Positions 21,408 to 38,987 of a DNA stretch of 64,000 nucleotides are shown here, in pieces. This DNA is from Candidatus Gastranaerophilales bacterium. GTDB lineage: Bacteria > Cyanobacteriota > Vampirovibrionia > Gastranaerophilales > Gastranaerophilaceae. The stretch lies in the NCBI GenBank assembly GCA_944326465.1, contig CALVEB010000008.1:1-64000 (forward strand). Reading direction: 5' to 3'. Position 1 is the stretch's first letter. Every line of letters starts with the position of its first letter. The notes under the pieces are model-generated. The model had not been told where the DNA came from, ran no database searches, and saw only the letters and a program-made list of their open reading frames with translations. Position numbers and translations under genes: made by a program.

Positions 21408-24400
21408 ATGAGCAATTTTGAGTTCTTAAAAAATGAATATCCTGAATTAGCTGAACTTGGAGCGATAGCAGAGGAGTTAATAGACACTGACGCTGCATCT
21501 TGTCTTACAAAATTGCGTTTAATTGCAGAATATATCGCAAAAGATATTTATTTTAGATATTTCCACGAAAAGTCTTATGAAAAACAAATAGATCTTTTAA
21601 AAGAATTAGAACCCTATATTGATTCTAAATATATGGATGTGTTTCATATTATAAGAAAAAAGGGGAATTTAGCAACTCATGCAAATGTTGGGAGTAAAGA
21701 AAATGCACATATTCTTCTAAAATATGCTTGGGCGTTATGTGTTTGGCATTATGTAACTAACTGTGGTGGAGATAGCTCTCTTATCAAACCTTATGAAAGA
21801 CCTGTAAGTAGAAAACTTTTACTTGAAAAAGAGCTTGAGGAAGCTAAAAAAAGAAGTGCTGAACTTGAAGCAGAACTGAAAGTTAAAGAAGAGCAGTTAA
21901 GTAAAGTAACAGTTTCATCTAAAGAAGAATTTATAAATAATCAAAACGAAAATAGAGAAACGACTGATAGACTTGGTGATTTAACTGAAACTCAAACAAG
22001 AAACTATATCATTGATGAAATGCTTATTGAAGCTGGTTGGAACATCAAAAAAGTTGAAAATTTTAATAAAGAAATCCAAGAATATGATACAGAAGAAGTC
22101 AAACGTGAAGTTGCAGTAAGCAATTTGCCAAATACTCCTTCCGGAAAAGGTTATATTGATTATGCTTTATATGATGCAACAGGTAAAATTATTGCAATTA
22201 TAGAAGCTAAAAAAACTAGGAGAGATCCAAAAGAAGGTAAAACACAAGCTTTCTATTATGCAAATTCTGTTGAAATGGAAACTGGTTTTAGACCACTAAT
22301 ATTCTATACAAACGGTTTTGAGACTTATTTCTGGGATGATGTTAATTATTCTCCAAGACGCATTTATGGAATGTTTTCTAAAGATGATATTGAGACAAGA
22401 CTTTTCCAAAGACAAAACCGTATGCCGTTAGAAAACGTTGAAATTGATACATCAATAACAAACAGAGATTATCAAATTTCTGCTATCAGAAAGACGTATG
22501 AAGCTTTTAGCGTAGGACAAAGAAAAGCACTTATTGTAATGGCAACAGGAACAGGTAAAACCAGAACTGCAATGTCAATAATTAAAGGCTTAGTAAATGC
22601 TAATTGGGTTAAAAGAATTCTATTTTTAGTTGATAGAGATGAATTAAGGAAACAAGCTGATAGTGCTTTTAACAAACATTTAAACTCATTATCAAGAGTT
22701 CTATTGAATTCTGAAACTAGAGGCAATATGAATTCAAAAGTCTATATTGCAACTTATCCTGCAATGCAAAAGGCTTATCAACTATATACACCAGGATTTT
22801 TTGATTTAATAATCGCAGATGAATCTCACCGTTCAATTTATAATGTGTATGGCGAAATCTTCAAATATTTTGATGCTTTCCAAATCGGTTTAACAGCAAC
22901 ACCTGTTGATTATATATCAAGAAACACATTCTCAATGTTTGACACTGAAGATGGAAACCCTACTTTCAGCTACGAACTTGATGATGCGATTAAGGAAAAA
23001 TATCTTGTGCCTTATAAAGTTCAAAAAGTTCAAACTCAGTTTCTTGAAAGAGGTATCAAATATTCTGACTTAAGTCAAAAACAGAAACAGGAACTGGCTG
23101 AGCAAGTCGAAGATCCTGAAAAATTTGATTTTGAAAGTAGTGAACTTGAATCTCAAATAACAAATAAAGATACCAATAGAAAAATAATAAAGAACCTTAT
23201 GGATAATGGGCTAAGAGATTCTAACGGTAGACTAGGTAAAACAATAATTTTTGCAAGAAGCCATAAACACGGTGAAATTCTTGAAGATTTATTTAATCAA
23301 ATGTACCCTGAATATAAGGGAAAATATGCAAGACTAATTGATTCACACGATCCTAATGCATCGCTTTTACTTGATGATTTTAAAGGAGAAGAACAAGAGA
23401 ATAATATCAATATTGCGATTTCTGTTTCTATGCTAGATACAGGTGTTGACGTCCCTGAGATTTTGAACCTTGCATTTGCCAAGCCTATTTATTCAAAAGT
23501 TAAATTTTGGCAGATGATAGGCAGAGGTACAAGACTTTGTGAAAACTTATTTGGTCCTGGCAAAGATAAAGAAGGTTTTGTAATTTTTGATCATTACTCT
23601 AATTTTGAATTCTTTGGAGAAAATCCGGAAGGTTATGTTCCAAAAGAACAGCTATCCTTATATGAAAGACTCTTTATGTCGAGGATTTCTCTAGCAGTAA
23701 CTGCAAAAGAATTAGGCGATGAAAAGATTCTGAATAAGACCATTGAACAGTTAAAAAATGATATAAAAACACTGCCTAAAAAATCAGTTGATGTTCAAGA
23801 ACATGCAATGAAACTTGATGAAATCTTAAAAACTGATTATTATTGGCAAGACTTGGATGATGATTTTTTACATGTTCTTGATACTATTGTAAGACCTTTG
23901 ATGAAAAGACATCAAACAACATTTTCGCAAGATAGAGCAATGCAGTTTGAAATTAATGTAATTCAATTGGAAGTGTTGGAGCTTGAAAGGTTAATTCTTC
24001 AACAAAGACAAATTGAAACAACGCAACAAGATAAAAAAATAGAACTTGTAAAAAATAAAATAAGAAAAACCGTTTTCCACCTAAGAGAAACTATTAACAA
24101 GGTCAAAGAAAAAACTGAGACGATAAACAAAGTTAAATCTCAAAATTTTGGTACACCTTTTAATTTTGATGAAATGGAAACTATCAAAGATGAACTAGCT
24201 CCGATTATGCAGTATAGTCAAAGAAGTGCATTGGATGATGATATTATAGAAATTGATATTACTGACGATGTCGAGATTAATGAAGAACTTCAACTTAATC
24301 TTTTTGCAGCGTTTGGCGAAGGCTTTAAATATAATATAGAACAATTCTTGAATAAAATAGCGAGTGAAAATATAGTTCTTCAAAAAATCAAAAGAGGGCA

Positions 24401-24785
24401 AAAAACAACAGAACAAGATATTCAATCACTTGTTTCAATTGTTCTTGAACAAAACCCTCATTTTACATTGAAGCAGTTGGAAAAATTATACCCGGATAAA
24501 GCGCAGGATATTGATTTGCTAATCCGTTCAATTATTGGCGTTGACGAAAATGAAGTTCATTCAAGGATAAATAATTTTATTGAAAAACATACAACACTTA
24601 CATCTGTACAATTACAATGCCTAAAATTAATTGAAAACCAGTTAAAAGCTAATAATTACTTTAATTTCAGTTGTTTATATGAGCAACCATTTACAAGATT
24701 AGGTTATGATATCTTTACGGAAGAAGAGCTAAACGAGCTAATGCAAGCATTAGATGGTTATGTAGTAAAACAACAAGTTGGTTAA
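21408..24785 (+). CDS. hsdR: Type I restriction endonuclease, R (motor/nuclease) subunit
   Basis: A 1125-residue HsdR. The N-terminus (about 1-125) is a DUF4145-like helical domain. A short coiled coil leads to the PD-(D/E)xK nuclease (GYIDYALYDATGKIIAIIEAK, about residues 246-267). The SF2 motor has ATGTGKT (about 381), DESH (about 472), GLTATP, and QMIGRGTR. The C-terminal helical region (from about 870) should bind the methyltransferase. It cuts unmodified foreign DNA after ATP-driven translocation. GGGG is placed 5-6 bases before the ATG. hsdM starts 3 bases after its stop. Confidence 0.96.
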   Translation: MSNFEFLKNEYPELAELGAIAEELIDTDAASCLTKLRLIAEYIAKDIYFRYFHEKSYEKQIDLLKELEPYIDSKYMDVFHIIRKKGNLATHANVGSKENAHILLKYAWALCVWHYVTNCGGDSSLIKPYERPVSRKLLLEKELEEAKKRSAELEAELKVKEEQLSKVTVSSKEEFINNQNENRETTDRLGDLTETQTRNYIIDEMLIEAGWNIKKVENFNKEIQEYDTEEVKREVAVSNLPNTPSGKGYIDYALYDATGKIIAIIEAKKTRRDPKEGKTQAFYYANSVEMETGFRPLIFYTNGFETYFWDDVNYSPRRIYGMFSKDDIETRLFQRQNRMPLENVEIDTSITNRDYQISAIRKTYEAFSVGQRKALIVMATGTGKTRTAMSIIKGLVNANWVKRILFLVDRDELRKQADSAFNKHLNSLSRVLLNSETRGNMNSKVYIATYPAMQKAYQLYTPGFFDLIIADESHRSIYNVYGEIFKYFDAFQIGLTATPVDYISRNTFSMFDTEDGNPTFSYELDDAIKEKYLVPYKVQKVQTQFLERGIKYSDLSQKQKQELAEQVEDPEKFDFESSELESQITNKDTNRKIIKNLMDNGLRDSNGRLGKTIIFARSHKHGEILEDLFNQMYPEYKGKYARLIDSHDPNASLLLDDFKGEEQENNINIAISVSMLDTGVDVPEILNLAFAKPIYSKVKFWQMIGRGTRLCENLFGPGKDKEGFVIFDHYSNFEFFGENPEGYVPKEQLSLYERLFMSRISLAVTAKELGDEKILNKTIEQLKNDIKTLPKKSVDVQEHAMKLDEILKTDYYWQDLDDDFLHVLDTIVRPLMKRHQTTFSQDRAMQFEINVIQLEVLELERLILQQRQIETTQQDKKIELVKNKIRKTVFHLRETINKVKEKTETINKVKSQNFGTPFNFDEMETIKDELAPIMQYSQRSALDDDIIEIDITDDVEINEELQLNLFAAFGEGFKYNIEQFLNKIASENIVLQKIKRGQKTTEQDIQSLVSIVLEQNPHFTLKQLEKLYPDKAQDIDLLIRSIIGVDENEVHSRINNFIEKHTTLTSVQLQCLKLIENQLKANNYFNFSCLYEQPFTRLGYDIFTEEELNELMQALDGYVVKQQVG

Positions 24786-24788
24786 GTT

Positions 24789-26246
24789 ATGACAGATAAA
24801 GAATTTAAAGCGATTATTGACGAATTATGGGACAAATTTTGGTCCTCAGGTATAAGTAACCCAATATCAGTGGTAGAACAAATGACCTACTTGATATTTT
24901 TTAAGATGTTTGAATCCCAAGAGGATTTAGAAGACAAAAAAGCAAAACATTTTGGCAAACCAAGAAAATCCTTTTTTGAAAATAGAGAAAACTTGAGATG
25001 GAGCAATTTCAAACAACTATCTGCTGATGAAATGCTAAAAACTTATCGCGAAAAAGTTTTTCCACTCTTAGGCGAAATCAATCCTGCACTACAAGATTCT
25101 GTTTGTTTAATTACAAAACCGTCACTACTTGATACCGCTGTTCAAACCCTTGATAAAATGGATTTTTCTGATGGAAATGACAGAAAAGGCGATATTTATG
25201 AATATATGCTGAATAAACTTGCAATAGCAGGACAAAATGGGCAGTTCAGAACTCCTCGCCATATTATCGAAATGATGGTAAAGCTGATGCAACCGACACC
25301 ACAAGACAAAATTTGCGATCCTGCATGTGGTACAGGCGGCTTTTTGTGCGGTGCTTACAGATATATTTTAGAACAAGGTACATCTGATGATTTTAAAGAA
25401 ATTTCTCCTATCTTTGGGGACCTTTTGAGTGATGAAGATAGAAAAAATATCGATGATAATGTCTTTTTCGGCAGAGAATTTGACCCGACAATGTATAAAA
25501 TTGGTCTTATGAATATGATTTTGCACAACATAAAACCTAAAAACATAAAACTGCAAGATTCTTTATCAAAAGACGCTGACGAAAAAGATAAATATACTCT
25601 GGTACTTGCTAATCCGCCTTTTACTGGCAATTTAGATGAAAAGGATGTATCAAATAAATTAACGACAATCGTAAAAACCAAAAAAACAGAACTTCTTTTT
25701 ATGGCAAAATTTATGCGAATGCTTGATATTGGGGGTAGAGCTGCCGTAATTATTCCGACGGGCGTTTTATCTACTGATTCAAAAGCTCATAAAACCTTGA
25801 GAGAAAAACTCATTGAACAAAATAGACTCGATGCAGTAATTTCTATGCCTTCAGGAGTTTTCAAACCCTATGCAGGTGTTGCAACCGCAGTTCTTATCTT
25901 TACTAAAGGTGAACCAACAAAATCAACCTGGTTCTACGAAATGCAAAACGATGGCTTTACCCTTGATGATAAAAGAAATGAAATCGAAGAAAACGATATT
26001 CCTGATATTCTTGCAAAATTTTCTGACAGAGAAGAATCTAAGAAGTCATTTAATGTATCTATAGAAGATTTGAGAGAAAATGAATACAATCTGCTCCCAT
26101 CAAGATACAAAAAAATAGAATATACTCCGCCAACTTTTGAGCACACACCGCTAGAGTATGTTCAAATTCTTTTGGACTCAGAAAGAAAATCAATCGAACT
26201 CCTTGAATCCCTAAAAGAAAAACTTGGAGGGAAACTAAATGTTTGA
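24789..26246 (+). CDS. hsdM: Type I restriction-modification methyltransferase subunit
   Basis: A 485-residue N6-adenine methyltransferase. An N-terminal HsdM helical domain is followed by GQFRTPRHIIEMMV, SAM motif I DPACGTGGFL (about 178-187), GREFDPTMYKIGLMN, and catalytic motif IV NPPF (about 276-279). It methylates the site chosen by HsdS. It overlaps hsdS by 8 bases. All key motifs are intact, in contrast to the methyltransferase-like gene two places downstream. Confidence 0.96.
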   Translation: MTDKEFKAIIDELWDKFWSSGISNPISVVEQMTYLIFFKMFESQEDLEDKKAKHFGKPRKSFFENRENLRWSNFKQLSADEMLKTYREKVFPLLGEINPALQDSVCLITKPSLLDTAVQTLDKMDFSDGNDRKGDIYEYMLNKLAIAGQNGQFRTPRHIIEMMVKLMQPTPQDKICDPACGTGGFLCGAYRYILEQGTSDDFKEISPIFGDLLSDEDRKNIDDNVFFGREFDPTMYKIGLMNMILHNIKPKNIKLQDSLSKDADEKDKYTLVLANPPFTGNLDEKDVSNKLTTIVKTKKTELLFMAKFMRMLDIGGRAAVIIPTGVLSTDSKAHKTLREKLIEQNRLDAVISMPSGVFKPYAGVATAVLIFTKGEPTKSTWFYEMQNDGFTLDDKRNEIEENDIPDILAKFSDREESKKSFNVSIEDLRENEYNLLPSRYKKIEYTPPTFEHTPLEYVQILLDSERKSIELLESLKEKLGGKLNV

Positions 26247-27492
26247 AAATATACCTAAACATTGGAAAAAGAAAAAAATAAAAGAACTTTGCGACTTTCA
26301 AAATGGATATGCTTTTAACAGTAATGATTATGTAAACGATGGCTTTCCTATTATTCGAATGAGTAATATTTCTGTTAATGGAGAACTTAATTTAAATACA
26401 AATAATACAAAATTTTTTCCAAAGGAAAATATTGATAAAGTTAAACAATACTTTTTAAAAGAAAACGATGTTATAATAGCAATGACTGATATGTCTAAAG
26501 AAATGGGTATAATAGGAAAAACTGCTATTATAGATAAATCAGATATATATTTGTTAAATCAACGAGTGGGTAAATTTATTATTAAGGATAATAAAGTTCT
26601 TAATTACAAATATTTACATGCCTACACAAATTCACCACTATTTATAAATTATGCAAGACAGCAATGTTCTGGTGGGGTTCAACTTAATTTATCAACTAAG
26701 GCGATAATGGAACATCAACTACTTTTACCTACATTAGAAGAGCAACAAGAGATAGTAGATGTTTTAGATGCAGCGAGTGAAATAATTCGTTTACGCACTG
26801 CCTGTATCGAAAGTGCCCAATCCCTCATCCCTGCCCTCTTCCAAGAGATGTTCGGAGACATTAATAATAATATTCATAGTTTACCAATATCAGAGATTAA
26901 ATCTTGTGTGGAAATAAATCCTACAAAGATCATTATGAATGACAATGATGATGTCACATTTTTAGGAATGAAAGATGTAACCGAAAATGGTCAAATGGAT
27001 TTATCAACAATAAAAAAATATGAGGAAGTAAAAAAAGGGTTTACAAGTTTTAAAAATGATGATGTTTTGTTGGCAAAAATTACTCCTTGTTTTGAAAATG
27101 GTAAAGCTGCAATAGCTAAAAACTTAGTAAATAATACAGGATTTGGTAGTACTGAGTTTTATGTTCTTAGACCTGAACAAAACAAGATTTTACCTGAATA
27201 TCTTTACTCAATAGTAAAATCTTCTCGTTTTTTAGAAATTGGGAAGTCTAATATGAAAGGTGCGGCAGGACAAAAACGATTAATAAAAGATTTTGTATCC
27301 AATTATAAATTTTTGTTGCCAGATATGCCACAACAAGAACTTTTTGCAACAAAAGCTCAAGAGATAGAGGCATATATAAAAATACAACAAGCTGAACTAG
27401 AAAATGCCAAAACCATGTTCCAATCCCTCCTCCACTATGCTTTTATGGGTAAGTTGACAGAAAATATAACTTTTGAGGTAAAAAATGAATAA
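26239..27492 (+). CDS. hsdS: Type I restriction-modification specificity subunit
   Basis: A 417-residue HsdS with two target recognition domains. TRD1 begins CDFQNGYAFNSNDYVNDGFP and TRD2 begins CVEINPTKIIMNDNDDVTFL. Each is followed by a conserved helical spacer (LPTLEEQQEIVDVLDAASEI; LPDMPQQELFATKAQEIEAY). It fixes the bipartite DNA sequence for both methylation and restriction. Overlaps of 8 bases at each end (hsdM before, methyltransferase-like gene after) tie the whole cassette together. No recombinase or second hsdS is adjacent. Confidence 0.95.
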   Translation: MFENIPKHWKKKKIKELCDFQNGYAFNSNDYVNDGFPIIRMSNISVNGELNLNTNNTKFFPKENIDKVKQYFLKENDVIIAMTDMSKEMGIIGKTAIIDKSDIYLLNQRVGKFIIKDNKVLNYKYLHAYTNSPLFINYARQQCSGGVQLNLSTKAIMEHQLLLPTLEEQQEIVDVLDAASEIIRLRTACIESAQSLIPALFQEMFGDINNNIHSLPISEIKSCVEINPTKIIMNDNDDVTFLGMKDVTENGQMDLSTIKKYEEVKKGFTSFKNDDVLLAKITPCFENGKAAIAKNLVNNTGFGSTEFYVLRPEQNKILPEYLYSIVKSSRFLEIGKSNMKGAAGQKRLIKDFVSNYKFLLPDMPQQELFATKAQEIEAYIKIQQAELENAKTMFQSLLHYAFMGKLTENITFEVKNE

Positions 27493-29464
27493 TAAGGCGA
27501 ACAACTTAATATTCAAACTTTTTGATGATGTAAAAAGATTTCAAAATAACATAGACGAATCTCTTGCAATAACGTTAGGATTAGTTTATCTGATATATAC
27601 AGACAAGGAATCTTTTTTAACAGCAAGCGGAATGCATGATCCCAATAATACATATCCATATATCGATGTTGTAGATTTTTATATGGATAATATTCGCAAT
27701 AGAATGGATCTTAAATTTGCCAATGAACAACTTGAAAGATACTTAGTTAATAATATAAAAAGTTATGAGGAATTTGCAACTTTTTCTAAAATAGACATAA
27801 AAAATGCAATAGAAAATTTGTTACAAGATAAAAGTCCGATGTTACAAGCCTCTTCAAGGCAAACTGATAGTTTTACTCAAAGAGTTATTACTCAAATTGC
27901 AAAGCTACTAAATTCTAAAGGTCCATACATTGATCTCGCTGTAGGTACTGGAAGTTTATTAAAAGATTTTGATGGAGAAGTTTGGGGAGATGATATCAAT
28001 CCTAAAATGGTAGTTATTGCCAGATGTTATTTGTATTTTTATTTAAATGATGTAACTTATGAAAGTTTAATAAATGATATTAGACTACAAGATAGTATAG
28101 AAACTTTTAATTATACAGGATATAAAAATGCTGTTATATTTTTTGATCCTCCAATGGGTGATTTTAGACTATATCCCAAAGATGAAAGATGGCAAAATAC
28201 AGAAATTTTCAATAAAAAACCAGTAAAATTACAAAGTGAAATTTTGTTTCTTATGAATTTTTTAGTTAATGCTAAAAATAATGATTATTTTATAGGATTA
28301 TTCCCCGAAAATATATTAAATAAAAATAGCTACGAATATAACAATATTCGAAAATACTTAATAGAACATTCTTTAATTTGCGTTATTAGAGTTTTAACAG
28401 GACATGTTTTATTGATTGGACAAAAAAAGTTAGATATCAAAAAATATCCGGACATTTCAGTTATTAGAATTCAACAGCTATTAAATTCTGAACAATTAGA
28501 CTTTATTGTTAAAGAAATAATAAAAGGTAAAGATATAAATTTTACCCCTTATTTCAGTATTAAACCAAGTGATTTTGGTACCATTATAAAAAATTATGAT
28601 AGTATTGAAAATTATAATAAAGACTTTAGAAGCATTACCTATGCAATATATAAACGAAATGACTTATTAAAAAATAATTTTGCAATAAATTTACCCGAAA
28701 AATTAACATATGAAGATTTGCATAAGAATAATAAAGAAACCCTTCAAGAACTCTTAAAAAAAATTAATGATAATGAAGAAGAGATTAAAATAAAAATACA
28801 GCAAATAAATGACACTGTTTCTCAAATACAAAGTAAAGAAGAAACACAATATAAATTTGAACCTTGGTTTAGTAATAATATAACAGATAAAATAAATAAT
28901 GTTTTATCTTATTTCTATTCAAAGTACTATTTAGATTTATTAACTGAAGATAATATTGAAAGTTGGTTTGATTTTCAAATAAGAGATAATGTAACGCCAG
29001 AAAAATTTACTAATTTGAAAATATTATTTGAAAGTCGACGTGTTAAATTGTTAAAAAATAAAGTAAAAATATATTTTGGAGAAAATAAAGAGAATTTACA
29101 AAAAGATATTAATTGGATGGAATTTTACAATTTATTTGATCCTCTCAAAGATAAAGATTTAAAATGTATATTTGAATTAACAAATAATGATAAGAATATA
29201 AAACTTATTTTTGAAAACCTTTGTCAATATTGGATGTTAGATCAAAATGAAGATAATACATTATTAAAACAAAAAGAATTTCCAATAAAAGAATTTACTC
29301 GATGTTTAAAAGTATTAGAAAATTTAGGATTAGTTATTTTTGATAAAAGGAAAGTTTATACTTCTGAACACGAACATTCTGAAATTGACCTATATAAAAG
29401 ATTTATTCCAAATATAAAATATATAGATGCTATAAGAATTGAGGAAGCACAAAATGTTCGATGA
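27485..29464 (+). CDS. Methyltransferase-fold protein with altered motifs
   Basis: A 659-residue protein. Residues 1-130 are helical; 148-160 form a SAM-like motif I (YIDLAVGTGSLL); the acidic GDDIN follows at 168-172. The catalytic position reads FFDPPMGDF (219-227), where N6-adenine methyltransferases have (N/D)PP(Y/F/W). The C-terminal half (from about 420) is a coiled-coil-rich, K/E-rich region ending in a possible winged-helix (CLKVLENLGLVIFDKRKVYT). It overlaps hsdS by 8 bases and the ATPase gene by 11. I suggest a divergent methyltransferase or a DNA/nucleotide-sensing pseudoenzyme partner of the ATPase. The gene is visibly more AT-rich than hsdR. Confidence 0.65.
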   Translation: MNNKANNLIFKLFDDVKRFQNNIDESLAITLGLVYLIYTDKESFLTASGMHDPNNTYPYIDVVDFYMDNIRNRMDLKFANEQLERYLVNNIKSYEEFATFSKIDIKNAIENLLQDKSPMLQASSRQTDSFTQRVITQIAKLLNSKGPYIDLAVGTGSLLKDFDGEVWGDDINPKMVVIARCYLYFYLNDVTYESLINDIRLQDSIETFNYTGYKNAVIFFDPPMGDFRLYPKDERWQNTEIFNKKPVKLQSEILFLMNFLVNAKNNDYFIGLFPENILNKNSYEYNNIRKYLIEHSLICVIRVLTGHVLLIGQKKLDIKKYPDISVIRIQQLLNSEQLDFIVKEIIKGKDINFTPYFSIKPSDFGTIIKNYDSIENYNKDFRSITYAIYKRNDLLKNNFAINLPEKLTYEDLHKNNKETLQELLKKINDNEEEIKIKIQQINDTVSQIQSKEETQYKFEPWFSNNITDKINNVLSYFYSKYYLDLLTEDNIESWFDFQIRDNVTPEKFTNLKILFESRRVKLLKNKVKIYFGENKENLQKDINWMEFYNLFDPLKDKDLKCIFELTNNDKNIKLIFENLCQYWMLDQNEDNTLLKQKEFPIKEFTRCLKVLENLGLVIFDKRKVYTSEHEHSEIDLYKRFIPNIKYIDAIRIEEAQNVR

Positions 29465-30830
29465 GTTATACATAAATGACTATTGTAATTTTAACACCTT
29501 TAGAATGATTTTTCCTATAAAGAAAAATACAAAAAATTGTGCAAATTTAAATTTAATAGTTGGGAAAAATGGCTCAGGTAAAAGTTCTTTATTAGATGCT
29601 CTATTTGAAATTGGAGAATACAATTTAAAGGATAATTTTGCTCAAGTTGATAACACTAGATTTGAATATAAAATAATTAAAGAAAACAAAATAATTAGTT
29701 CTAATTTAAAAATTAAAGGCAGTGAATTAATGCCAAAAGATGAAAAGAATGATTATTTTTGGGATGCAATCATTCGTTTGCATACAGGACATACTGCAAG
29801 ACAATATAATTCATATCGAAACAATATATATTCATTAACAACAAATACTACAAAGTGGGCCTTACTTGCATATATTACAAGTGGAATATGGCATTCATTA
29901 TATAAATGTACTATTGATGCAGCATTATGGGATAAACTACAAAATATAATATTTGGGGAAAATAACCATATAAAAATACAAATTATTTGGTTAGATATCA
30001 AAAAAGAACATGATTATGACGAAATAGACAATTCTGTAATAAGAGATATTAGAGAACCAGATGGTTATATATATATTGGAAACAAAATAACAAGATATTT
30101 TTGGAATTTAGAAAAACCAATTACTATAGAACCATTCGGGACTAATATTAAACAAAAAAAAATTAATCCATTGCCTATATTAGCAACTTTTTTAGATAAA
30201 ATAGATCCTATAAAAATATCCAAAGATTTAAACGGGAAATATATTGATACCGGATTTTTATACAGCAAAGGTGATTCTAATAAATTATATCCAGATTCAT
30301 TTTTAAGTGATGGGGAACATGGTTTTTTTACAAGATTTGCACTACTAATGCTTTTAAAAGAAGAAAATTTAAACTATCATAAACATTTTCTAATATTATT
30401 AGATGAACCAGAAACTCATTTTAATGAAAATTGGAAAACATCGTTTCTAAATCTTGTGTGTAAAATTTTTGAGAATACAAATCATGATATTTTTATTGCA
30501 ACGCACTCTGCAATGTTGGTTACAGATGCAAAAGAAGATGAAATTCATCGATTAGAGAATTTACCTTCGGGCATAGTGCACTATCCTGTGCCAATAAAAA
30601 CTTATGGGGCAAATATTATTGATATAGGACGTGCCTTATTTAAAATGGAGTCTGATGTTGGAGAACGGGTTAAAAGTGATATTCAGCAGGCAATGGATAA
30701 TAATGATAAAGAAAAATTAGAAGAATTAATCAGAGAAGTAGGCCCAGGAGAATGGCGTTGGAAAATAAGAAGTAAATTAAATCAATTAGAAAAAGCTGAT
30801 ATGTGCTGTAATTTTAAAACAAAAGGTTAA
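29454..30830 (+). CDS. AAA/ABC-type ATPase, Septu PtuA/OLD-like
   Basis: A 458-residue ATPase with an SMC/ABC-like head: Walker A VGKNGSGKSS (about 36-45), a signature-like LSDGEHGFFTR (about 284), Walker B FLILLDEPETHF (about 315), and an H-loop IFIATHSAML. This is the arrangement in PtuA, RloC and OLD-family defence ATPases; no Toprim domain is seen. The start ATG 29454 has GAGGAAG upstream; an earlier ATG at 29439 lacks one. An HNH nuclease gene follows 10 bases later, the Septu (PtuAB) order. Confidence 0.8.
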   Translation: MFDELYINDYCNFNTFRMIFPIKKNTKNCANLNLIVGKNGSGKSSLLDALFEIGEYNLKDNFAQVDNTRFEYKIIKENKIISSNLKIKGSELMPKDEKNDYFWDAIIRLHTGHTARQYNSYRNNIYSLTTNTTKWALLAYITSGIWHSLYKCTIDAALWDKLQNIIFGENNHIKIQIIWLDIKKEHDYDEIDNSVIRDIREPDGYIYIGNKITRYFWNLEKPITIEPFGTNIKQKKINPLPILATFLDKIDPIKISKDLNGKYIDTGFLYSKGDSNKLYPDSFLSDGEHGFFTRFALLMLLKEENLNYHKHFLILLDEPETHFNENWKTSFLNLVCKIFENTNHDIFIATHSAMLVTDAKEDEIHRLENLPSGIVHYPVPIKTYGANIIDIGRALFKMESDVGERVKSDIQQAMDNNDKEKLEELIREVGPGEWRWKIRSKLNQLEKADMCCNFKTKG

Positions 30831-30840
30831 TAGTTGGAAA

Positions 30841-31716
30841 ATGAAAAATAAAAATCTTTTTAAAAAAATTTTAGAACAAAGATTTTTTAAAATTCTAGGA
30901 ACCAGTATCCTAAAAAGCGACTATGAGCAATTTTTATGGACAGTAAAAGATATTTCAGAAGATTTAAAAACAAACATAATCAATAAATTTGATACAATGA
31001 CTTGTAATAGTTCTGAATTTAGAAGTAAATTTGGGCATTTGTCTTTTAAACAAGCATTTATAAAAGATTATTTTAATGGTACAACTCCAAGATGTTGTTT
31101 TTGTGGAAAACTTTTAGAAGAAGCACACAATAAATATAATGAAACATATATTATTGCAGATATTGAACATGTTTTTCCTAAAAGTAAATTTCCTCAATTT
31201 ACTTTACACATAGATAATTGGGTACCTTGTTGCAAAGAGTGTAATGAAATAATCAAAAAAGATGAATTTTTTCCTTCAGACCCAATACAAAATTTTAACA
31301 CTGTATTAGAAGATTTACACACAGATATTGATAATATGCATCCGCTTGAATTATGGAAATTATATACCATAAATTATGATGAAAACTTAAACATTAAAAT
31401 TAATAAAAATTGTAGCGAAGCTACAACAGAATTTTTAAGTTTTTATGGAATTGAATCTCGAATTAAAATAATGGCAGCACGTTGTTATGATATTTTACTC
31501 AATATAATTCGGCATTCAAATATTCGTTCTCCTGAATCTTTAGAACGATTGCTTGAAAATATGGCTTCAAGTAACTGGCATGAGATTAATGATGGCTATT
31601 CTTTAAATAATAGTCCACAAATCTGGCAAGAATTTATTGAAAATATTTTGTATGATGAATGTAAACTTATGGCTCTTTGGGACGAAGTAAAATCTATGAA
31701 TATGAGCATTTTTTAA
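30841..31716 (+). CDS. HNH endonuclease, Septu PtuB-like
   Basis: A 291-residue HNH nuclease. The zinc knuckle is CFCGK (C85-x2-C88) with CKECN (C131-x2-C134). The catalytic DIEHVFPKSKFP (H110) and DNWVPC (N126) complete the beta-beta-alpha-metal fold. About 80 helical residues precede it and about 140 follow. It would be the nuclease effector driven by the ATPase encoded immediately upstream. It is the last intact gene of the six-gene operon; a decayed CxxC gene starts one base after its stop. Confidence 0.8.
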   Translation: MKNKNLFKKILEQRFFKILGTSILKSDYEQFLWTVKDISEDLKTNIINKFDTMTCNSSEFRSKFGHLSFKQAFIKDYFNGTTPRCCFCGKLLEEAHNKYNETYIIADIEHVFPKSKFPQFTLHIDNWVPCCKECNEIIKKDEFFPSDPIQNFNTVLEDLHTDIDNMHPLELWKLYTINYDENLNIKINKNCSEATTEFLSFYGIESRIKIMAARCYDILLNIIRHSNIRSPESLERLLENMASSNWHEINDGYSLNNSPQIWQEFIENILYDECKLMALWDEVKSMNMSIF

Positions 31717-33120: not shown

Positions 33121-33200
33121 CGCTCGAACCAAAATAGTGTTTCTCGCCCTACTACAGAGATTAAAAAAGACAGGTACAAGACCTGTCTTCTTTAATCTGG
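33121..33200. repeat. 80-bp repeat with terminator hairpin, copy A
   Basis: Begins CGCTCGAACCAAAATAGTG and ends in the hairpin GATTAAAAAAGACAGG ... CCTGTCTTCTTTAATC. It is repeated at 33306-33385 with two mismatches. The last three bases join the tRNA-Ile 3' fragment. Confidence 0.8.
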
Positions 33201-33213
33201 GCCGCAGTGGACT
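33198..33213 (-). repeat. 16-bp fragment of the tRNA-Ile 3' end
   Basis: TGGGCCGCAGTGGACT is identical to 46073-46088, the 3' acceptor and T-stem of tRNA-Ile(GAU), in the same orientation. It is a candidate attachment-site remnant (see findings). Confidence 0.6.
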
Positions 33214-33305
33214 GTCTTGCTCACTCGCGTTTAACGGCAATTTCGCATTTTGTTTTCAGTGATTTCATCACTTCAAACAAAACTGCTCCAGCCTCAGCTC
33301 GTTCG

Positions 33306-33385
33306 CGCTCGAACCAAAATAGTGCTTCTCGCCCTACTACAGAGATTAAAAAAGACAGGTACAAGACCTGTCTTTTTTAATCTGG
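33306..33385. repeat. 80-bp repeat with terminator hairpin, copy B
   Basis: Second copy of 33121-33200, 185 bases further on. It lacks the tRNA fragment after the hairpin. Confidence 0.8.
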
Positions 33386-33574
33386 ACGTTGACGTACGGT
33401 TTAACACTCCAAATTCGCCAAATTGCAGCATAGCTTAGGATTTGGACTAGTTGAAAACCTGCAATTTTTCTGACTGATTTTTCTGAACTTCTGTAGGCAA
33501 AAAACTGCAAAACTGTTGAAAGCTTGAATATGACTGCAAAACAAGTATGTCGCAACAAAATGAAAGGGATTTTT

Positions 33575-33847
33575 ATGGCAAGGCTTAGTTCTAAAAAATT
33601 GAATGAGTTGAAAGAAGTTAATCTGCTGACAAATGACGAGATTTCTAAGTTGACAGGCATACCTCTGTTCACTGTTGAAAATCTTTTTTCTGGGCGAAAT
33701 CTTTACCCTACTATGTGGATGCTTGTTGCTCTTATGGAGTTGTTTAGCTGTGATATGAAAGATTTCTTTGAGTATGAGGAAGATGAGTTTAACAGCTATG
33801 ACAGTTTTTCCAGTCAGTTTCCAGAAATTATCACAAATTTATTCTAA
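33575..33847 (+). CDS. Small HTH protein of the mobile element
   Basis: About 90 residues. MARLSSKKLNELKEVNLLTN leads to an HTH (NDEISKLTGIPLFTVENLFSGRN), then LVALMELFSCDMKDFFEYEE. The start ATG 33575 follows AAAGGGA by 5-6 bases; an upstream in-frame ATG at 33524 has none. It is the first plus-strand gene after the tRNA fragment and may be an element regulator, though the target is not known. Confidence 0.65.
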   Translation: MARLSSKKLNELKEVNLLTNDEISKLTGIPLFTVENLFSGRNLYPTMWMLVALMELFSCDMKDFFEYEEDEFNSYDSFSSQFPEIITNLF

Positions 33848-33877
33848 TGCTACAGGCAAATGTATGTGAAATAAATA

Positions 33878-34960
33878 TTATTCATTAATCCATTGGACTT
33901 CAATATTACCATTCATAGATATTTCATATTTGATATGATGTGTTGCATCTGGACAAGTTGTAATGGATGTACTTTTTAAAGCTATTTTACGAACTAAAAA
34001 CTCAGCATCCCCAAATACTGTTTTTTGACTTTTATCTTTTAATACTCTTATTTGGGTTGAATGTGTCATTATTTTTTCTAAAATTTCTGATTTAGGAATT
34101 CTGGATTTATTATATGGTGATATTATTATCTGGTAATCTTTACCCCAAATATCCCAAATCTCTTTATTATATGCCCCTCCACTTCCATGATGTGGTGCTT
34201 TAAGAAAAACTAAATTGCTTTTTAATAATGGATACCGTTCTTCTTTATATATTTCTTGCCAAGATTCGTTAGTTACATCTCCACCTAATAAAATTTTTAA
34301 ATCACCAAATTCAATGATTAAAGCTACTGAAATTATATTATGAACAGATGATTCTATTGAAAAATTACCAGATAAGCCATTATTTTTACACGCTTTATAC
34401 AAACACTCATTATATTTTTTACTATACTCATCAATGTCATTTGCACAAGGTGCAATACAAGTTATAGCTATATTTTCATCAAGCGTATTTAAACCATATA
34501 GTATTTTCCCTAAACATAGCTGTGCATCTATAGTTTTTATTAATTTTTTATTCTTTAAATCAGAAATTTTTTCAAATAATTTCAAAAGATATCCCGGTTT
34601 AGGTTTAGAAATATAAATATCTGTTGAATTCTTTAAGAATTTTTCATCAATTTGTTCAATAAGCTCTGAGAGACCTTTTAATCTCCCAAAATGAAACCGT
34701 CCTAATAAGTTAATTTGAATTTCATGTGCTTCACAATATGTTAGTAAATCTATTAAATAATGAGTGTGGTCATCATGAGGATGTGTCCATAACAAAAATT
34801 CAATTGAACTTAATTTGTTTTCTGATACATACAGATTAAACCATTTTAAAAAATCTTTATACCCAAAATCTACAATACCAATCTTACCATTAGGAAACTT
34901 TATAAAAATAGTTTCACCATTGCCATCTCCAAAAACCCTAATCACAAGATTAGATGTCAT
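33878..34960 (-). CDS. Metallo-beta-lactamase-fold hydrolase (ComEC C-domain-like)
   Basis: About 360 residues. MBL motifs are WTHPHDDHTHY (metal ligands, about residues 59-69), a LGGD motif (ILLGGDVTNES), and APHHGSGGAYN. This matches the ComEC/Rec2-like MBL group often found in defence islands; such enzymes may act on nucleic acids or cyclic nucleotides. ATG 34960 has GAGGAAAA upstream. It overlaps the preceding gene by 11 bases and is the last gene of a three-gene minus-strand operon. Confidence 0.75.
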   Translation of the reverse strand: MTSNLVIRVFGDGNGETIFIKFPNGKIGIVDFGYKDFLKWFNLYVSENKLSSIEFLLWTHPHDDHTHYLIDLLTYCEAHEIQINLLGRFHFGRLKGLSELIEQIDEKFLKNSTDIYISKPKPGYLLKLFEKISDLKNKKLIKTIDAQLCLGKILYGLNTLDENIAITCIAPCANDIDEYSKKYNECLYKACKNNGLSGNFSIESSVHNIISVALIIEFGDLKILLGGDVTNESWQEIYKEERYPLLKSNLVFLKAPHHGSGGAYNKEIWDIWGKDYQIIISPYNKSRIPKSEILEKIMTHSTQIRVLKDKSQKTVFGDAEFLVRKIALKSTSITTCPDATHHIKYEISMNGNIEVQWINE

Positions 34961-35369
34961 AGTTTTCCTCATATAAAGAAATCCTATTAGCAAATTTTCT
35001 ATCTTCAATTTTTTCTAGTAATGTTTCATTGTACTTTTCAAATTCAAAGGTCATATCATACTGTTTAAGTAAGATAAAATCATTTACTTTGATATCAAAT
35101 TCAAATTTATCAATGTTAAATTGATAAGCTTCCCCGATACCAGAATCGGTATTTTTAAAAACTATAGTTACAATATTATCATTAATTTCAGTAATTAAAC
35201 CTTTAAACTGTTCAACTAAATTCCTTTGTTCAATTATAATATTTTGCCAACCGATTTTTTCCTCTATTTGTTCATTAGTTGCTTTATATAAATATTCATT
35301 CATAGGGCTCTCAAACCAATGAGGAACTAAATCTATTTGAGATTGTATTTGTATATAATCTTTTAACAT
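34950..35369 (-). CDS. Unknown protein, middle gene of MBL cassette
   Basis: A 139-residue protein that I do not recognise. It has a charged helical N-terminus (MLKDYIQIQSQIDLVPHWFE) and a beta-rich middle (GLITEINDNIVTIVFKNT), which could be a small barrel. It ends in a helical KYNETLLEKIEDRKFANR. No membrane segment or signal is seen. Its stop overlaps the MBL gene, and it lies 14 bases from the TIGR04255-like gene, so all three are likely made together. Confidence 0.6.
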   Translation of the reverse strand: MLKDYIQIQSQIDLVPHWFESPMNEYLYKATNEQIEEKIGWQNIIIEQRNLVEQFKGLITEINDNIVTIVFKNTDSGIGEAYQFNIDKFEFDIKVNDFILLKQYDMTFEFEKYNETLLEKIEDRKFANRISLYEENYDI

Positions 35370-35383
35370 AATAAACCTCTATA

Positions 35384-36199
35384 TTATTTATTGTCAGAGA
35401 AAAATTTATCACCTAGCATATGCCTATACAAATTGTAAATAATTGTACTAAAATTATTTAAATCGTCTTCCATATGAATATTCAATTTACTTGGATTGTC
35501 TTTAAAAACTTGAAAATCGTAGATTAATGATTTAGACTTACCATCTGGATTTAAAGAGGAACCATTTCTAATAACTATTTTAGTTCCATCATTTTCTTGT
35601 GAAACAATTTCATTATAAAATCTGACAGGTTCTTCAATATCCAAACCATCATTATTAAGTAAATTAACTTCCTTTATATAATCGTTATTTAACTTATTTA
35701 ATGTATCAGCATCATAATTTACTTTATTAATCTTACGTACAAATAATGCTTTATTTTTAACAAAAATTTCTCGATTATATTCGCCTGCAACAAAAATCAA
35801 ACATTCGTATATTTTTTTAAAAGTTTTACTAAAATCTTTAAAATTAGAATAATTTGCATGTGGATTTATGCATTGAAAATCTAACATTTCGTTGTTTAGT
35901 ATTAGTTGAAATTTTCCATCTTCATCATAATATATATAATTTACAGAATTCTTTTCTTCTATTGAAACTTTATTCTTATTAAGACCTTCATTACTAATCT
36001 GTAACTTATGCTCTCGCATTGGACTTATTGTTCGTTCAGGAAATTCTGCGAAAATTTTATTATAAAAAGCCTGCTCAATACTATTTACGTTTGGATAAAC
36101 AAAATTCAATGCAATACCAACAAAATCTAGTGTATTAGTAGTATGTTGTTTTATATCCTCAATATTGTATTTTTTTAAAATTTCATATTTTATCGTCAT
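35384..36199 (-). CDS. TIGR04255-like sporadically distributed protein
   Basis: A 271-residue protein resembling the TIGR04255 family in layout. It has an early pairing of a core (TLDFVGIALNFVYPNV), FPERTISPMREHKLQIS, FQLILNNEMLDFQ, HANYSNFKDFSKTFKKIYEC, and a central FVRKINKVNYD where members have RYINRI/RYINxI. Function is unknown; the family is patchy and often near defence genes. The assignment is by pattern only. It is the first gene of the three-gene cassette; AAGGGC lies before its ATG. Confidence 0.5.
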   Translation of the reverse strand: MTIKYEILKKYNIEDIKQHTTNTLDFVGIALNFVYPNVNSIEQAFYNKIFAEFPERTISPMREHKLQISNEGLNKNKVSIEEKNSVNYIYYDEDGKFQLILNNEMLDFQCINPHANYSNFKDFSKTFKKIYECLIFVAGEYNREIFVKNKALFVRKINKVNYDADTLNKLNNDYIKEVNLLNNDGLDIEEPVRFYNEIVSQENDGTKIVIRNGSSLNPDGKSKSLIYDFQVFKDNPSKLNIHMEDDLNNFSTIIYNLYRHMLGDKFFSDNK

Positions 36200-36339
36200 C
36201 TTAAGCCCTTACTAAAAGATAATAACACCTCAAAATAAAAAATCCAATATTCATTTTAGTTATTTAAAAAAAATTTGTCTAAATATTTACATTTCTAAAA
36301 AATTAGCACTATATAGAACAGATTGACAGGAGATTTTTT

Positions 36340-36861
36340 ATGTATTGCTTTCCTGATTTAGATGAACAAACAAGATTGATTATGATTAGCGAGCTTGAAT
36401 TTGACATCCGTACAGGTTTATTTTATGAGCCGTTATCTATGACAACATCAGGCATGATTAGTTACAAAAGATTGCTAAAAGAGTGCTTTGAAAAAGGTAC
36501 TCCTGAAACTTTGCAACAAAAGCTTACTTCTTCTTTCTTTAGAGAAACAAACCGCAACGGTCGCAAAATTCCGTCTAACATTCGTGAAATGGTTAGCTTT
36601 AGTGACTTTAATCGTTACTATGTTCGTGCCCTACTATTGCGTGCATTTAGTGAGGGCAAAAAACTTTGCGTTTATCGTGCAAAACAAGTTATGAATGAAC
36701 GCAAAGAATCCAAATTATCGGTTAACAAAGTCTATTTTGACAAAAGACAAATCGGAGAAATGCTTGAATTGTTTAGAGATTACCGAAGACTTTTCAGCTC
36801 ACAACATGAACTTTTGCAGCCAAATTCAGGACTTAGTCTTAGATTGGTTGATACATTCTAA
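36340..36861 (+). CDS. Unknown protein of the mobile element
   Basis: A 173-residue basic protein. It includes DEQTRLIMISELEFDIRTGL, SYKRLLKECFEKGTPETLQQ, and RYYVRALLLRAFSEGKKLCV. It is on the plus strand between two minus-strand cargo cassettes, together with the element's other plus-strand genes. AGGAG precedes the ATG by 7 bases. I do not know its function; the position suggests an element core gene, perhaps for DNA binding or replication. Confidence 0.55.
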   Translation: MYCFPDLDEQTRLIMISELEFDIRTGLFYEPLSMTTSGMISYKRLLKECFEKGTPETLQQKLTSSFFRETNRNGRKIPSNIREMVSFSDFNRYYVRALLLRAFSEGKKLCVYRAKQVMNERKESKLSVNKVYFDKRQIGEMLELFRDYRRLFSSQHELLQPNSGLSLRLVDTF

Positions 36862-36880: not shown

Positions 36881-37438
36881 CTATTTTTTGTTAATTGAAA
36901 ACATTTCTCTGTATGTTTCTAATATTTTTCCAATAGAATTTTGCAAACTTTTTGCTAGATATATTAGTTCCTCAAGATCTTGTTTATTAAGTCGCAAAAT
37001 TCCATTTTGAGAAAGTGAACTTGTTTTTTGAAAAAATCCTTTAACAGAATCTAGAATAGGTTCTTTTAACTTAAGTAATTCACTATCAGCAATAAGCCAT
37101 AGACTAGCTTCGTTTAACCTAATTTCATTCCAAGCTTTTTGTAATTGTTCCTCTACTGCATTTATATCATCAACATTGGTATACTCAAGGTATTCGTAGT
37201 GATATAGCAAAACTGCAACTAAGTTTATTACAATATTGCGAAATTCATATAGTTTTCTGAAATGGTTTTCAAAGATATCTAACCTTTTTGAAAACAAAAA
37301 AGTAACTTTTTTGTTTTCAATTTCTAACTTTTTATTTAGAATTGGAGAGATTATTGATATAATAAGTGCAATCCATGCCGGAGTTGTTTTAAAAATTTCA
37401 ATAATGACATCTTTGTATTCATGAAGTATATTCATCAT
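36881..37438 (-). CDS. Predicted membrane protein of a two-gene cassette
   Basis: A 185-residue protein with one hydrophobic segment near the N-terminus (TPAWIALIISIISPIL, about residues 18-34) and a possible second (IVINLVAVLLYHY). The rest is helical and charged. An ATGATG pair begins it. The start overlaps the preceding gene by 20 bases, so they form one unit. A membrane-anchored effector paired with a soluble partner is a common defence layout, but here it is an inference. Confidence 0.55.
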   Translation of the reverse strand: MMNILHEYKDVIIEIFKTTPAWIALIISIISPILNKKLEIENKKVTFLFSKRLDIFENHFRKLYEFRNIVINLVAVLLYHYEYLEYTNVDDINAVEEQLQKAWNEIRLNEASLWLIADSELLKLKEPILDSVKGFFQKTSSLSQNGILRLNKQDLEELIYLAKSLQNSIGKILETYREMFSINKK

Positions 37439-38210
37439 CGTTTCCGTTAACTAATTCAATCCTTTCAATATTATAAACTTTTACTTTTTCTCCTTTATAC
37501 TCAACAGTTCCTGAAGCTCTGTATAAATTTCTAAAAATATTCGAATTTTCTTCTAAAATAGAGCTTTTTAATGTATCATCATTAAACAAAATTTTACTAG
37601 GTTTTTCTGATATGCTTGGAATAATAGCTTTATCACCTGGAGTTGAACCTTTAACATTTCTGGTTTGGAAAAACTGTAGTAATGCATTTTCAAAGATATT
37701 AATACGTTGAGCTTCAAGACTTTGCAGTTTTGCAATTGCCTTTTCTCTAACGACAATCCCCTGTTTATTAGAAATTTCTATTTTGTTTATTGGTTGGCGA
37801 TTTTTCATTGTTTCAACCTCAAGACACAAATTACCATCATCTGCAAACATATCTGTAATATTTTTTACATGCTTACAGTCTTTTCTTGTACAATACAAAT
37901 CATCTATTTCTTCAGTTTCAAACTTTTTCAAAAGTTTTTGAAGATATATAAAAAAATCAACTATTGTATATTGTAAAATCTCTGGATACAAAACAAGTGA
38001 TGATACAATAATTAACTCATATATTTGGCTACCAGATTCTATTTGTGACACTGCTATTTCAGGAATAGAGTCATCAATATGTTTTTGGTAATCTTTCCCG
38101 ACAGAAGAGTTATATTCTTTTTGTATAGCTGAGAAAAACGCTACTAAATTTTCAACTTTAATAGGCCTAGTATTTTTTATATGAATTTGTGCGGTGTATT
38201 GATCATTCAT
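37419..38210 (-). CDS. Unknown protein of a two-gene cassette
   Basis: About 263 residues. It starts MNDQYTAQIHIKNTRPIKVE, with SQIESGSQIYELIIVSSLVL, a helical region, and a DDLYCTRKDCKHVKN stretch with two close cysteines. The C-terminal part reads LYRASGTVEYKGEKVKVYNI. The family is not known. The ATG at 38210 is preceded by TTAACT, a 17-base spacer, TACTAT and six bases, so it appears leaderless. No Shine-Dalgarno is seen. Confidence 0.55.
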   Translation of the reverse strand: MNDQYTAQIHIKNTRPIKVENLVAFFSAIQKEYNSSVGKDYQKHIDDSIPEIAVSQIESGSQIYELIIVSSLVLYPEILQYTIVDFFIYLQKLLKKFETEEIDDLYCTRKDCKHVKNITDMFADDGNLCLEVETMKNRQPINKIEISNKQGIVVREKAIAKLQSLEAQRINIFENALLQFFQTRNVKGSTPGDKAIIPSISEKPSKILFNDDTLKSSILEENSNIFRNLYRASGTVEYKGEKVKVYNIERIELVNGNDDEYTS

Positions 38211-38422
38211 AAGCAAATAGTAACATGCAAATGCAATCTAGTTAATTTATATATACATTTTTTTTACTAAAGTTAATGTTTATTTTCCATTTTATAGAAA
38301 GGCTTTCTAAGTGATTTTAGATTTTCTACTCTAAAACTACGCCTTTGCGACACTCCGACGACAGAGAAACTACACAGTAGCACATGGCTGAAATCTTTTC
38401 TTAGCTCCGTTGTTGAGCTTTT

Positions 38423-38443
38423 GACTACACAAACTACACTTTT
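38423..38443. repeat. GACTACACAAACTACAC direct repeat, copy 1
   Basis: A 21-base sequence repeated exactly at 44226-44246, in the same orientation and also followed by TGAGA. Inside is a near-tandem ACTACAC. Confidence 0.65.
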
Positions 38444-38467
38444 TTGAGACAATTGAACAAATTTTTC

Positions 38468-38827
38468 TTAGAAGTTCTTTACCACTGGTTTGAAATTCGG
38501 ATTTATGGTCATCTCGTGAAGAACTTCACCGATTTCATTCTTTGGCAATATGATTGAGGGATTTTTGTAGAGGATTTGTAGAAGAATTTTGATTGAAGAT
38601 ATGCTCATTTTATGGTCTTTGACAAGTATTCTAAGGCATTGAAGCCACTCAACATCGTACAAGCTGTAGAGCCTTTTCTGAACTTTGCCTGTTTTTACCC
38701 TCTGGGTATTGATCAGCTTTTCTGTGTCGTATGTTCTTAGCCTGTCAGGAGTTATTCCTAATCTTTCAGCTACAATGCTAGTTGTCAGTATTGGTTCATT
38801 TTTCTCAAACTTGTTCTTGAGTACCAT
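38468..38827 (-). CDS. MerR-like HTH regulator
   Basis: A 119-residue protein. The HTH-wing portion (LTTSIVAERLGITPDRLRTYDTEKLINTQR) fits the MerR family, with YSLYDVEWLQCLRIL as in its second helix-turn-helix half. The effector domain is short, as in HspR-like members. GAGG precedes the ATG. It lies near the 21-base repeat at 38423 and is divergent from a secreted protein gene, which it may regulate. Confidence 0.7.
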   Translation of the reverse strand: MVLKNKFEKNEPILTTSIVAERLGITPDRLRTYDTEKLINTQRVKTGKVQKRLYSLYDVEWLQCLRILVKDHKMSISSIKILLQILYKNPSIILPKNEIGEVLHEMTINPNFKPVVKNF

Positions 38828-38987
38828 ATTTTATCCTCATATCCTTTCAATGATAATACACAAGGCAAATTATAGCTATTTGCATGTAGCTATTCGACAA
38901 AAGACTAAATTCTTAATTTATGTAAACCATATTTACAAATTTATGGTTTATGTGTATTATGGTTTTGGTTATGAAAGAGAGGTAAAA

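Follow-up and report, generated by a model that had tools for sequence, protein, structure and literature searches.

A conserved pairing of a TIGR04255 gene with a metallo-β-lactamase-fold gene in Gastranaerophilales and Firmicutes: a probable mobile defence system

Do three closely spaced genes on the minus strand of a Candidatus Gastranaerophilales bacterium form a defence operon, and what would each of them contribute to it? The genes lie in a stretch of 64,000 nucleotides, here referred to as the window, which comprises positions 1 to 64,000 of contig C8 (CALVEB010000008.1) in a genome assembly of 2.07 Mb in 52 contigs (GCA_944326465.1). A first-pass annotation, made from the sequence of the window alone, had proposed that they constitute a three-gene defence operon. 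We describe here that the first and last of the three recur together, always in the same order, in other Gastranaerophilales, in Firmicutes and on viral contigs, and that the locus is real, conserved and mobile and probably represents a defence system. The three genes are referred to as A, B and C, and handles that begin with G and L denote genomes and loci, respectively.

35384-36199, minus strand: gene A, TIGR04255-family protein of 271 amino acids, ATG start
34950-35369, minus strand: gene B, protein of 139 amino acids with no known family, ATG start
33878-34960, minus strand: gene C, metallo-β-lactamase (MBL)-fold hydrolase of 360 amino acids from the ATG at 34960 (376 amino acids from an upstream TTG)

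The coordinates bear out the arrangement originally described, with a 14-nucleotide gap between A and B (35370-35383) and an 11-nucleotide overlap between B and C (34950-34960). By eye, a purine-rich stretch resembling a ribosome-binding site precedes each of the three ATG codons by a few bases; promoter-like sites were not above the number in shuffled sequences (28 versus 23.2; standard deviation, 4.7). Judged from sequence comparison, the three frames are real genes, because all three have conserved protein counterparts elsewhere, at 27 to 44% identity and in the same order.

A profile built for C (A1) matched 9 of 292 genomes in a phylum-wide sample at an E value of ≤1e-6. Full-length strong matches were confined to three of the 292, namely, the window genome (G000), G050 and G054; the remaining matches were truncated (G042 and G029) or weaker (G144, G271, G107 and G087, the last two in open frames of the size of ComEC). 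Both G050 and G054 hold the full trio in the same order, with identities to the window proteins of 34% for A, 27% for B and 43 to 44% for C, and their trios are nearly identical to each other (96% for C). Profiles for A (A4; 3 of 233 genomes of the order) and for B (A2; 3 of 217) each returned the same three genomes, and no A gene accompanies either of the truncated C copies. The neighbourhood search with the 139-residue middle protein that had been suggested at the outset recovered the trio in G050 and G054 and found B in none of the other genomes among the 217.

Elsewhere, A and C occur as a pair. An A-like gene and C, without B, are present in G144 (L034), and a C scan of contigs from GTDB genomes yielded six loci, consisting of two trios and of A+C pairs without B from Lacrimispora (L024), Schaedlerella (L025; the same pair is found in a metagenome-assembled genome, L026) and Erysipelotrichaceae (L027). 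The gaps between A and C in the other loci are approximately 125 to 200 bases, too short to hold B. Among 348 genomes of Lachnospiraceae, the family of Schaedlerella, the C profile matched 84 at an E value of ≤1e-10, mostly in ComEC-size open frames. The three clear C-like proteins in this set (E < 1e-40), those of G403 (the centre of the search; L025), G704 (L052) and G505 (L053), all have A directly upstream, and none of three further short-frame MBL loci that were inspected (L056, L070 and L074) has an A gene. The TIGR04255 model, when run on the same 348 genomes, found a single gene over its cut-off, and this gene lies directly upstream of C in G505.

Two IMG/VR viral contigs found via C also carry A upstream: one (L110) has a C protein 100% identical to that of the G505 pair, and the other (L109) has a different pair, whose A protein reached 44.5 bits against the profile of the pairs; a TIGR04255 profile built without the window and the pairs gave it 36.2 bits. 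L052, L053 and L109 were found via C alone, and with a profile lacking them their A proteins scored 94.1, 32.7 and 44.5 bits, respectively. Scans of viral contigs with the window C protein alone and with profiles A1 (C), A3 and A2 (B) gave no relative, and there was no match to C in phage records or to A in plasmid records. A precedes C in all nine distinct full-length systems compared (the window, L022, L024, L025, L027, L034, L052, L053 and L109), and the identities of A and C correlate across these systems (Mantel rho, 0.57; permutation P value, 0.001). Recurrence elsewhere had been set beforehand as a test of the proposal, and the trio in two further genomes of the order, together with A+C in several Firmicutes and on two viral contigs, satisfies it. 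What did not survive is the equal partnership of the three genes, since B was found only in the three Gastranaerophilales trios.

In the window, the trio occupies a variable slot beside a type I restriction-modification locus:

21408-24785, plus strand: HsdR, type I restriction-modification (PADLOC REase_I, 658 bits; Pfam)
24789-26246, plus strand: HsdM, type I restriction-modification (PADLOC MTase_I, 522 bits; Pfam)
26239-27492, plus strand: HsdS, type I restriction-modification (PADLOC Specificity_I, 207 bits; Pfam)
29439-30830, plus strand: AAA ATPase, TIGR04435/PtuA-like (NCBIfam TIGR04435, E = 4.5e-29 but below the cut-off; PADLOC PtuA, 2.7e-20)
30841-31716, plus strand: HNH protein, PtuB-like (PADLOC PtuB, 1.5e-12)
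33513-36334, no strand: variable cargo slot, holding the trio here and one gene for an 816-amino-acid P-loop protein in the sister species G149
33524-33847, plus strand: helix-turn-helix gene (HTH_26), 107 amino acids, convergent to the trio and inside the slot (Pfam PF13443, 22.3 bits; cut-off, 22)
36340-36861, plus strand: 173-amino-acid gene of unknown function, bounding the slot; its 5' part is conserved in the sister species

Positions 33369-33512, 36335-36629 and 38291-38979 of the window align to G149 at 87, 84 and 85% identity, in the same order and beside HsdM and HsdS. Between the first two of these blocks, the window has 2.8 kb with the trio and the helix-turn-helix gene, whereas the corresponding 2.5 kb of G149 contain a single gene, on the minus strand (L101, 5339-7789). 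The 816-amino-acid product of that gene matches AAA_16 with an E value of 1.2e-4, below the cut-off, has an N terminus that resembles HsdR_N by eye only and has no clear relative among solved structures. Such a change of cargo at a fixed site next to restriction genes is the behaviour of defence hotspots.

In coordinate order, the window carries HsdR, HsdM and HsdS, a 659-amino-acid protein, the AAA ATPase with the HNH protein and then the trio. At other loci, the neighbours are as follows: in G704 (L052 and L082), Shedu SduA and a PD-T7-3-like gene lie upstream and HsdR, HsdM and HsdS downstream; in G505 (L053 and L083), prophage tail genes and an amidase lie upstream and ParB and an actin-like protein downstream; AbiH lies upstream in L024; a tyrosine integrase, recognized by eye, adjoins the trio in G050 and G054; and the C remnant of G042 lies beside a type I restriction-modification locus. 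For G144, L025 and L027, inspection by eye rather than by scan revealed no defence gene among the listed open reading frames, and a family scan placed one ClpP-like gene next to L027. The defence setting is strong.

Several other features of these surroundings are of note. The gene for the 659-amino-acid protein, which is of unknown family, and those for the AAA and HNH proteins (27485-31716) follow HsdRMS on the same strand, as if a pair of the Septu type had been added to the end of the restriction-modification operon. The 107-amino-acid helix-turn-helix protein, whose gene lies outside the region aligning to G149, is a possible regulator. Two overlapping minus-strand genes without a known family (185 and 265 amino acids; 36881-38216) are missing from the otherwise aligned G149 locus and constitute a second candidate cargo. 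The trio had been described as interrupting plus-strand genes, and this is true of the block from 21408 to 31716, the helix-turn-helix gene and the 173-amino-acid gene and not of this second minus-strand pair. Adjoining the slot on the left (33121-33385) is an 80-nucleotide element in two copies (98% identity) with inverted arms, REP-like relatives of which are scattered through the genus; a DNA search of the left flank across the genus was dominated by a dispersed repeat. On the viral contig L109 (95-3055), the A+C pair is preceded by a 297-amino-acid gene that appears Abi-C type-like by eye only.

How firmly can A be placed, and what might it do? The TIGR04255 label given to the window protein at first sight was confirmed by the NCBIfam model (43.7 bits over residues 41 to 267; curated cut-off, 30). 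With a TIGR04255 profile built without the window protein, A scored 9.0 bits (E = 0.006; best decoy, 3.4 bits), and its membership rests on the NCBIfam model. That model gave 31.1 bits for the A protein of L053, 16.7 and 19.8 bits for those of L025 and L027, both below the cut-off, and no match for those of L009, L024, L034 and L052. The profile lacking the window protein gave 25 to 34 bits for L034, L022/L023 and L027, 16.2 bits for L025 and −0.1 bits for L024. The A proteins of L024 and L052 have diverged too far to be recognized by the TIGR04255 profiles; they are labelled A through their 33% identity to L025, itself weak. A homologues also stand first in the operon in L009/L010.

To our knowledge, no function has been described for TIGR04255, a sporadically distributed family, and no mention of it was found in the open-licence PMC literature (bioRxiv outside the scope). 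K156 and G213 are the sole invariant residues across nine A proteins, which have no invariant Ser/Cys/His/Asp catalytic set; with just two invariant residues, a controlling role for A is more likely than an enzymatic one. There was no match of A to any PADLOC-DB model at an E value of ≤1 and no sequence match in the PDB, where profile searches for all three proteins returned nothing of use. An AlphaFold2 model of A (m95d151cf178e; six sequences; pLDDT, 61) contains the TBP strand-helix order twice, the TBP topology being two copies of a beta-alpha-beta(4)-alpha repeat. VIA-align matched this model to Med18/20 with a Z score of 8.9 (123 residues; root mean square deviation, 3.7), where best Z scores of 7 to 8 are usual for models without a clear match, to RnlA with a Z score of 6.0 and to TBP with Z scores of 5.0 to 5.4 over residues 12 to 263. 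Foldseek returned nothing at an E value of ≤0.001, and profile comparison of the two halves gave no sequence support for a duplication within A. As a lead from a low-confidence model, A may have a duplicated, TBP-like fold of beta-alpha-beta sheets, and RnlA of the RnlA/RnlB toxin-antitoxin system, TBP and Mediator Med18-20 could share a TBP-like repeat with it at the level of the fold.

TIGR04255 also occurs with partners other than C. In the order, it is present in 11 of 233 genomes (12 genes), and by eye 9 of the 11 genes outside the window have a co-directional gene downstream that lies within 20 bases or overlaps; the exceptions are L044, which is broken by a stop, and L038, which stands alone. 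A recurrent three-gene operon, found in three genomes of the order (L040, L042 and L045), encodes TIGR04255, a protein of approximately 80 amino acids and one of approximately 214 amino acids. The partner in L041 and L044 is an HExxH protein (labelled by eye; no PDB match). In L046 (752-2277), the TIGR04255 gene is followed by a small protein and then by a KacT-like acetyltransferase, which has KacT and other acetyltransferases among its PDB matches, giving a toxin-antitoxin-like pair within the operon. Pairs with other, unknown partners were seen in L039, L043, L047 and L049. The variety of these partners suggests that TIGR04255 is a controller whose partners can be exchanged.

The operon of L046, the RnlA toxin domains among the fold matches of A and the mobile settings of the loci would also suit a toxin-antitoxin-like addiction module, in which C is a toxic nuclease, A (with B) is its antitoxin and selection acts on the maintenance of mobile elements, with defence as a secondary effect. 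We consider this unlikely, as A has no match to a DNA-binding family in Pfam, NCBIfam or PADLOC and as the exchange with a P-loop gene beside type I restriction-modification genes favours defence.

For gene B, comparison with Pfam, NCBIfam and PADLOC gave no family match at an E value of ≤1. Its model (mc6f33e009a6c) has a pLDDT of 50, with a core of approximately 75, in which residues 51 to 113 form a small, five-stranded, OB-like barrel. The best structural matches of this core are EF-P, IF5A and cold-shock domains (Z scores of 7.5 to 5.5), and the best Foldseek E value was 0.02. The core of B may be an OB fold, as far as a low-confidence model can suggest. A DUF3006-like domain, of a kind that occurs beside ComEC-type MBL genes, was considered for B and rejected: the Pfam model of DUF3006 found nothing in 60 genomes, and B is without a Pfam match.

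With regard to C, the metal ligands of the MBL fold are in place, with HxHxDH (H60-x-H62-x-D64-H65) followed by a distal Asp (D228) and His (H257). Eighteen alignment columns, including H60, D64, H65, N208, D228 and H257, are invariant in all nine C proteins of the A+C set, and the second His of motif 1 is replaced by Asp in L034 and L053, as in ComEC references. The conserved residues are presumably the metal site of ComEC-type nucleases. Matches to family models are weak and below the cut-offs, with 14.3 bits for Pfam PF00753 (gathering score, 22.7) and, as the best NCBIfam matches, 33.3 bits for Avs1a (cut-off, 420), 26.8 bits for 6A-MBL (NF058524; cut-off, 220) and 23.7 bits for ComEC (TIGR00361; cut-off, 190). 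The 6A-MBL family has a length similar to that of C, which nevertheless scores far below its cut-off, and ComEC/Rec2 proteins consist of a membrane channel fused to an MBL domain, whereas C is a single-domain protein. The first-pass annotation was therefore right in calling C ComEC-like as to its fold and not as to membership of ComEC, and the competence pathway that it had named as a possible refutation does not apply. The MBL fold covers many substrates, and weak NCBIfam and Pfam matches spread over several families are what might be expected if C were a nucleotide or metabolite hydrolase rather than a DNase, acting in a signalling or housekeeping pathway carried on mobile elements. That Avs1a, 6A-MBL and ComEC head the NCBIfam matches, and that the distribution is sporadic and in defence or phage settings, makes this the least likely of the alternatives that we weighed.

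A further peculiarity of C is its length between motif 1 and HHGS. This spacing is 190 to 191 residues in the trio proteins, approximately 75 more than in ComEC of the same order, for which it is 110 to 117 in ten ComEC-size open reading frames (L003, L014-L019, L021, L036 and L037; nine distinct genes, as L017 and L037 are the same). It is 136 in the short frame L020, 116 to 153 in 26 Lachnospiraceae references and 144 to 170 in the other C proteins of the A+C set (L109 left out). The extra length of trio C is compatible with self-blocking. According to PMC12799240, MBL proteins are DNase effectors of known defence systems (HamM, Avs1a, Lamassu and DRT MBL, and CanC); HamM, Avs1a and CanC have two insertions that block the active site and are cut by a partner protease, and the nuclease gene is last in canABC. 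The A-(B)-C operon is like the MBL pro-nucleases in having a ComEC-like effector that is enlarged between the metal motifs, encoded by a separate gene beside its controller and located in defence islands. It differs from them in that their partner is a trypsin or caspase protein, whereas here none was found and the partner of C, which comes last, is TIGR04255. Likewise, Avs1 (AVAST type 1) has STAND and protease partners, and the A-B-C operon has no such partners.

It could accordingly be asked whether C is a gated pro-nuclease like those of HamMAB, Avs1 and Canu, with A or B acting as an unrecognized protease that cuts its insertions. The additional residues of trio C lie in the region where gated nucleases carry insertions, the nuclease gene likewise comes last in canABC (PMC12799240), and there are very weak protease-like matches for A (putative sortase model; E = 0.014; 15.3 of 125 bits) and B (staphylococcal serine protease chain in the PDB; E = 0.24). 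However, the two invariant residues of A do not make a catalytic set, neither A nor B has a trypsin or caspase match at an E value of ≤1 or a protease family match above the cut-off in Pfam, NCBIfam or PADLOC, pairs without B exist, and the other C proteins are much less enlarged. We regard this alternative as very unlikely. Fig. S2 of the same study displays further nuclease loci, which could include the A+C pair. No description of the pair was found in the open-licence PMC literature on MBL anti-phage operons, 6A-MBL, Gastranaerophilales phage defence and TBP-like toxin-antitoxin systems, where the search on MBL anti-phage operons led to PMC12799240 alone and neither the partners of 6A-MBL nor its publication came to light. 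Sequence comparison suggests an effector of a known class under a new controller.

Considering the computed gene order, co-occurrence, metal-site conservation, defence or mobile setting and cargo swap, the A-(B)-C operon may well be a mobile anti-phage or anti-plasmid module with a core of A and the nuclease C, to which the Gastranaerophilales versions add B. In such a module, A would act as a sensor that recognizes an infection product, either a phage nucleic-acid structure or a protein, directly or via B, and recognition would release or position C. The latter would be a metal-dependent phosphodiesterase of the ComEC type, otherwise kept in an off-state by A/B or by the long insertions that it carries from motif 1 to HHGS. 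We infer that C would then cut DNA, so that phage replication stops, with or without loss of the cell, and that B would serve as a nucleic-acid-binding or docking accessory, that is, as an adaptor.

A number of points weigh against this inferred reading. Only 3 of 233 genomes of the order have the trio, and the count of 7 of 10 loci in defence or mobile settings stands without a random-gene null. The MBL effectors known so far depend on a partner protease, and the trio locus yielded no such protein. The PADLOC LmuA and RTasMBL matches of C (59.6 and 61.6 bits) were rejected as proof of defence, since controls score as high or higher, with two MBL controls that do not look like defence genes reaching 89.0 bits (L056) and 67.3 bits (L074) against LmuA. 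Finally, more distant three-gene operons with an MBL gene last occur in L013 (G222, of the window's family), on an Adhaeribacter plasmid (L028) and on a Pantoea conjugative plasmid, between two integrases (L029); their first and second genes were rejected as A and B homologues because the alignments were not above shuffled controls, and these operons may be cousins or separate inventions. In G222, the region upstream of this divergent MBL operon contains a DnaB-type helicase, a retron-like reverse transcriptase and a WYL regulator (L086, 751-7517).

A more far-reaching proposal, which we put forward as improbable, casts TIGR04255 as a modular immune sensor, built around a TBP-like saddle and standing first in operons whose effectors can be exchanged (an MBL nuclease, an HExxH protein, a GNAT toxin and at least three unknown partner sets). 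The A-(B)-C operon would then be its nuclease-armed form and would represent a new class of defence in bacteria, with a bacterial relative of the TBP fold as the reader of invading nucleic acid.

In summary, if the A-(B)-C operon is the defence module that we favour, a function would be assigned to TIGR04255, a family that has none, and protease-free control of an MBL nuclease would be added to bacterial immunity. It would also provide a compact system of two genes, mobile and carried by phages, that lends itself to cloning and testing. The diversity of TIGR04255 partners within a single order would, moreover, point to further systems.

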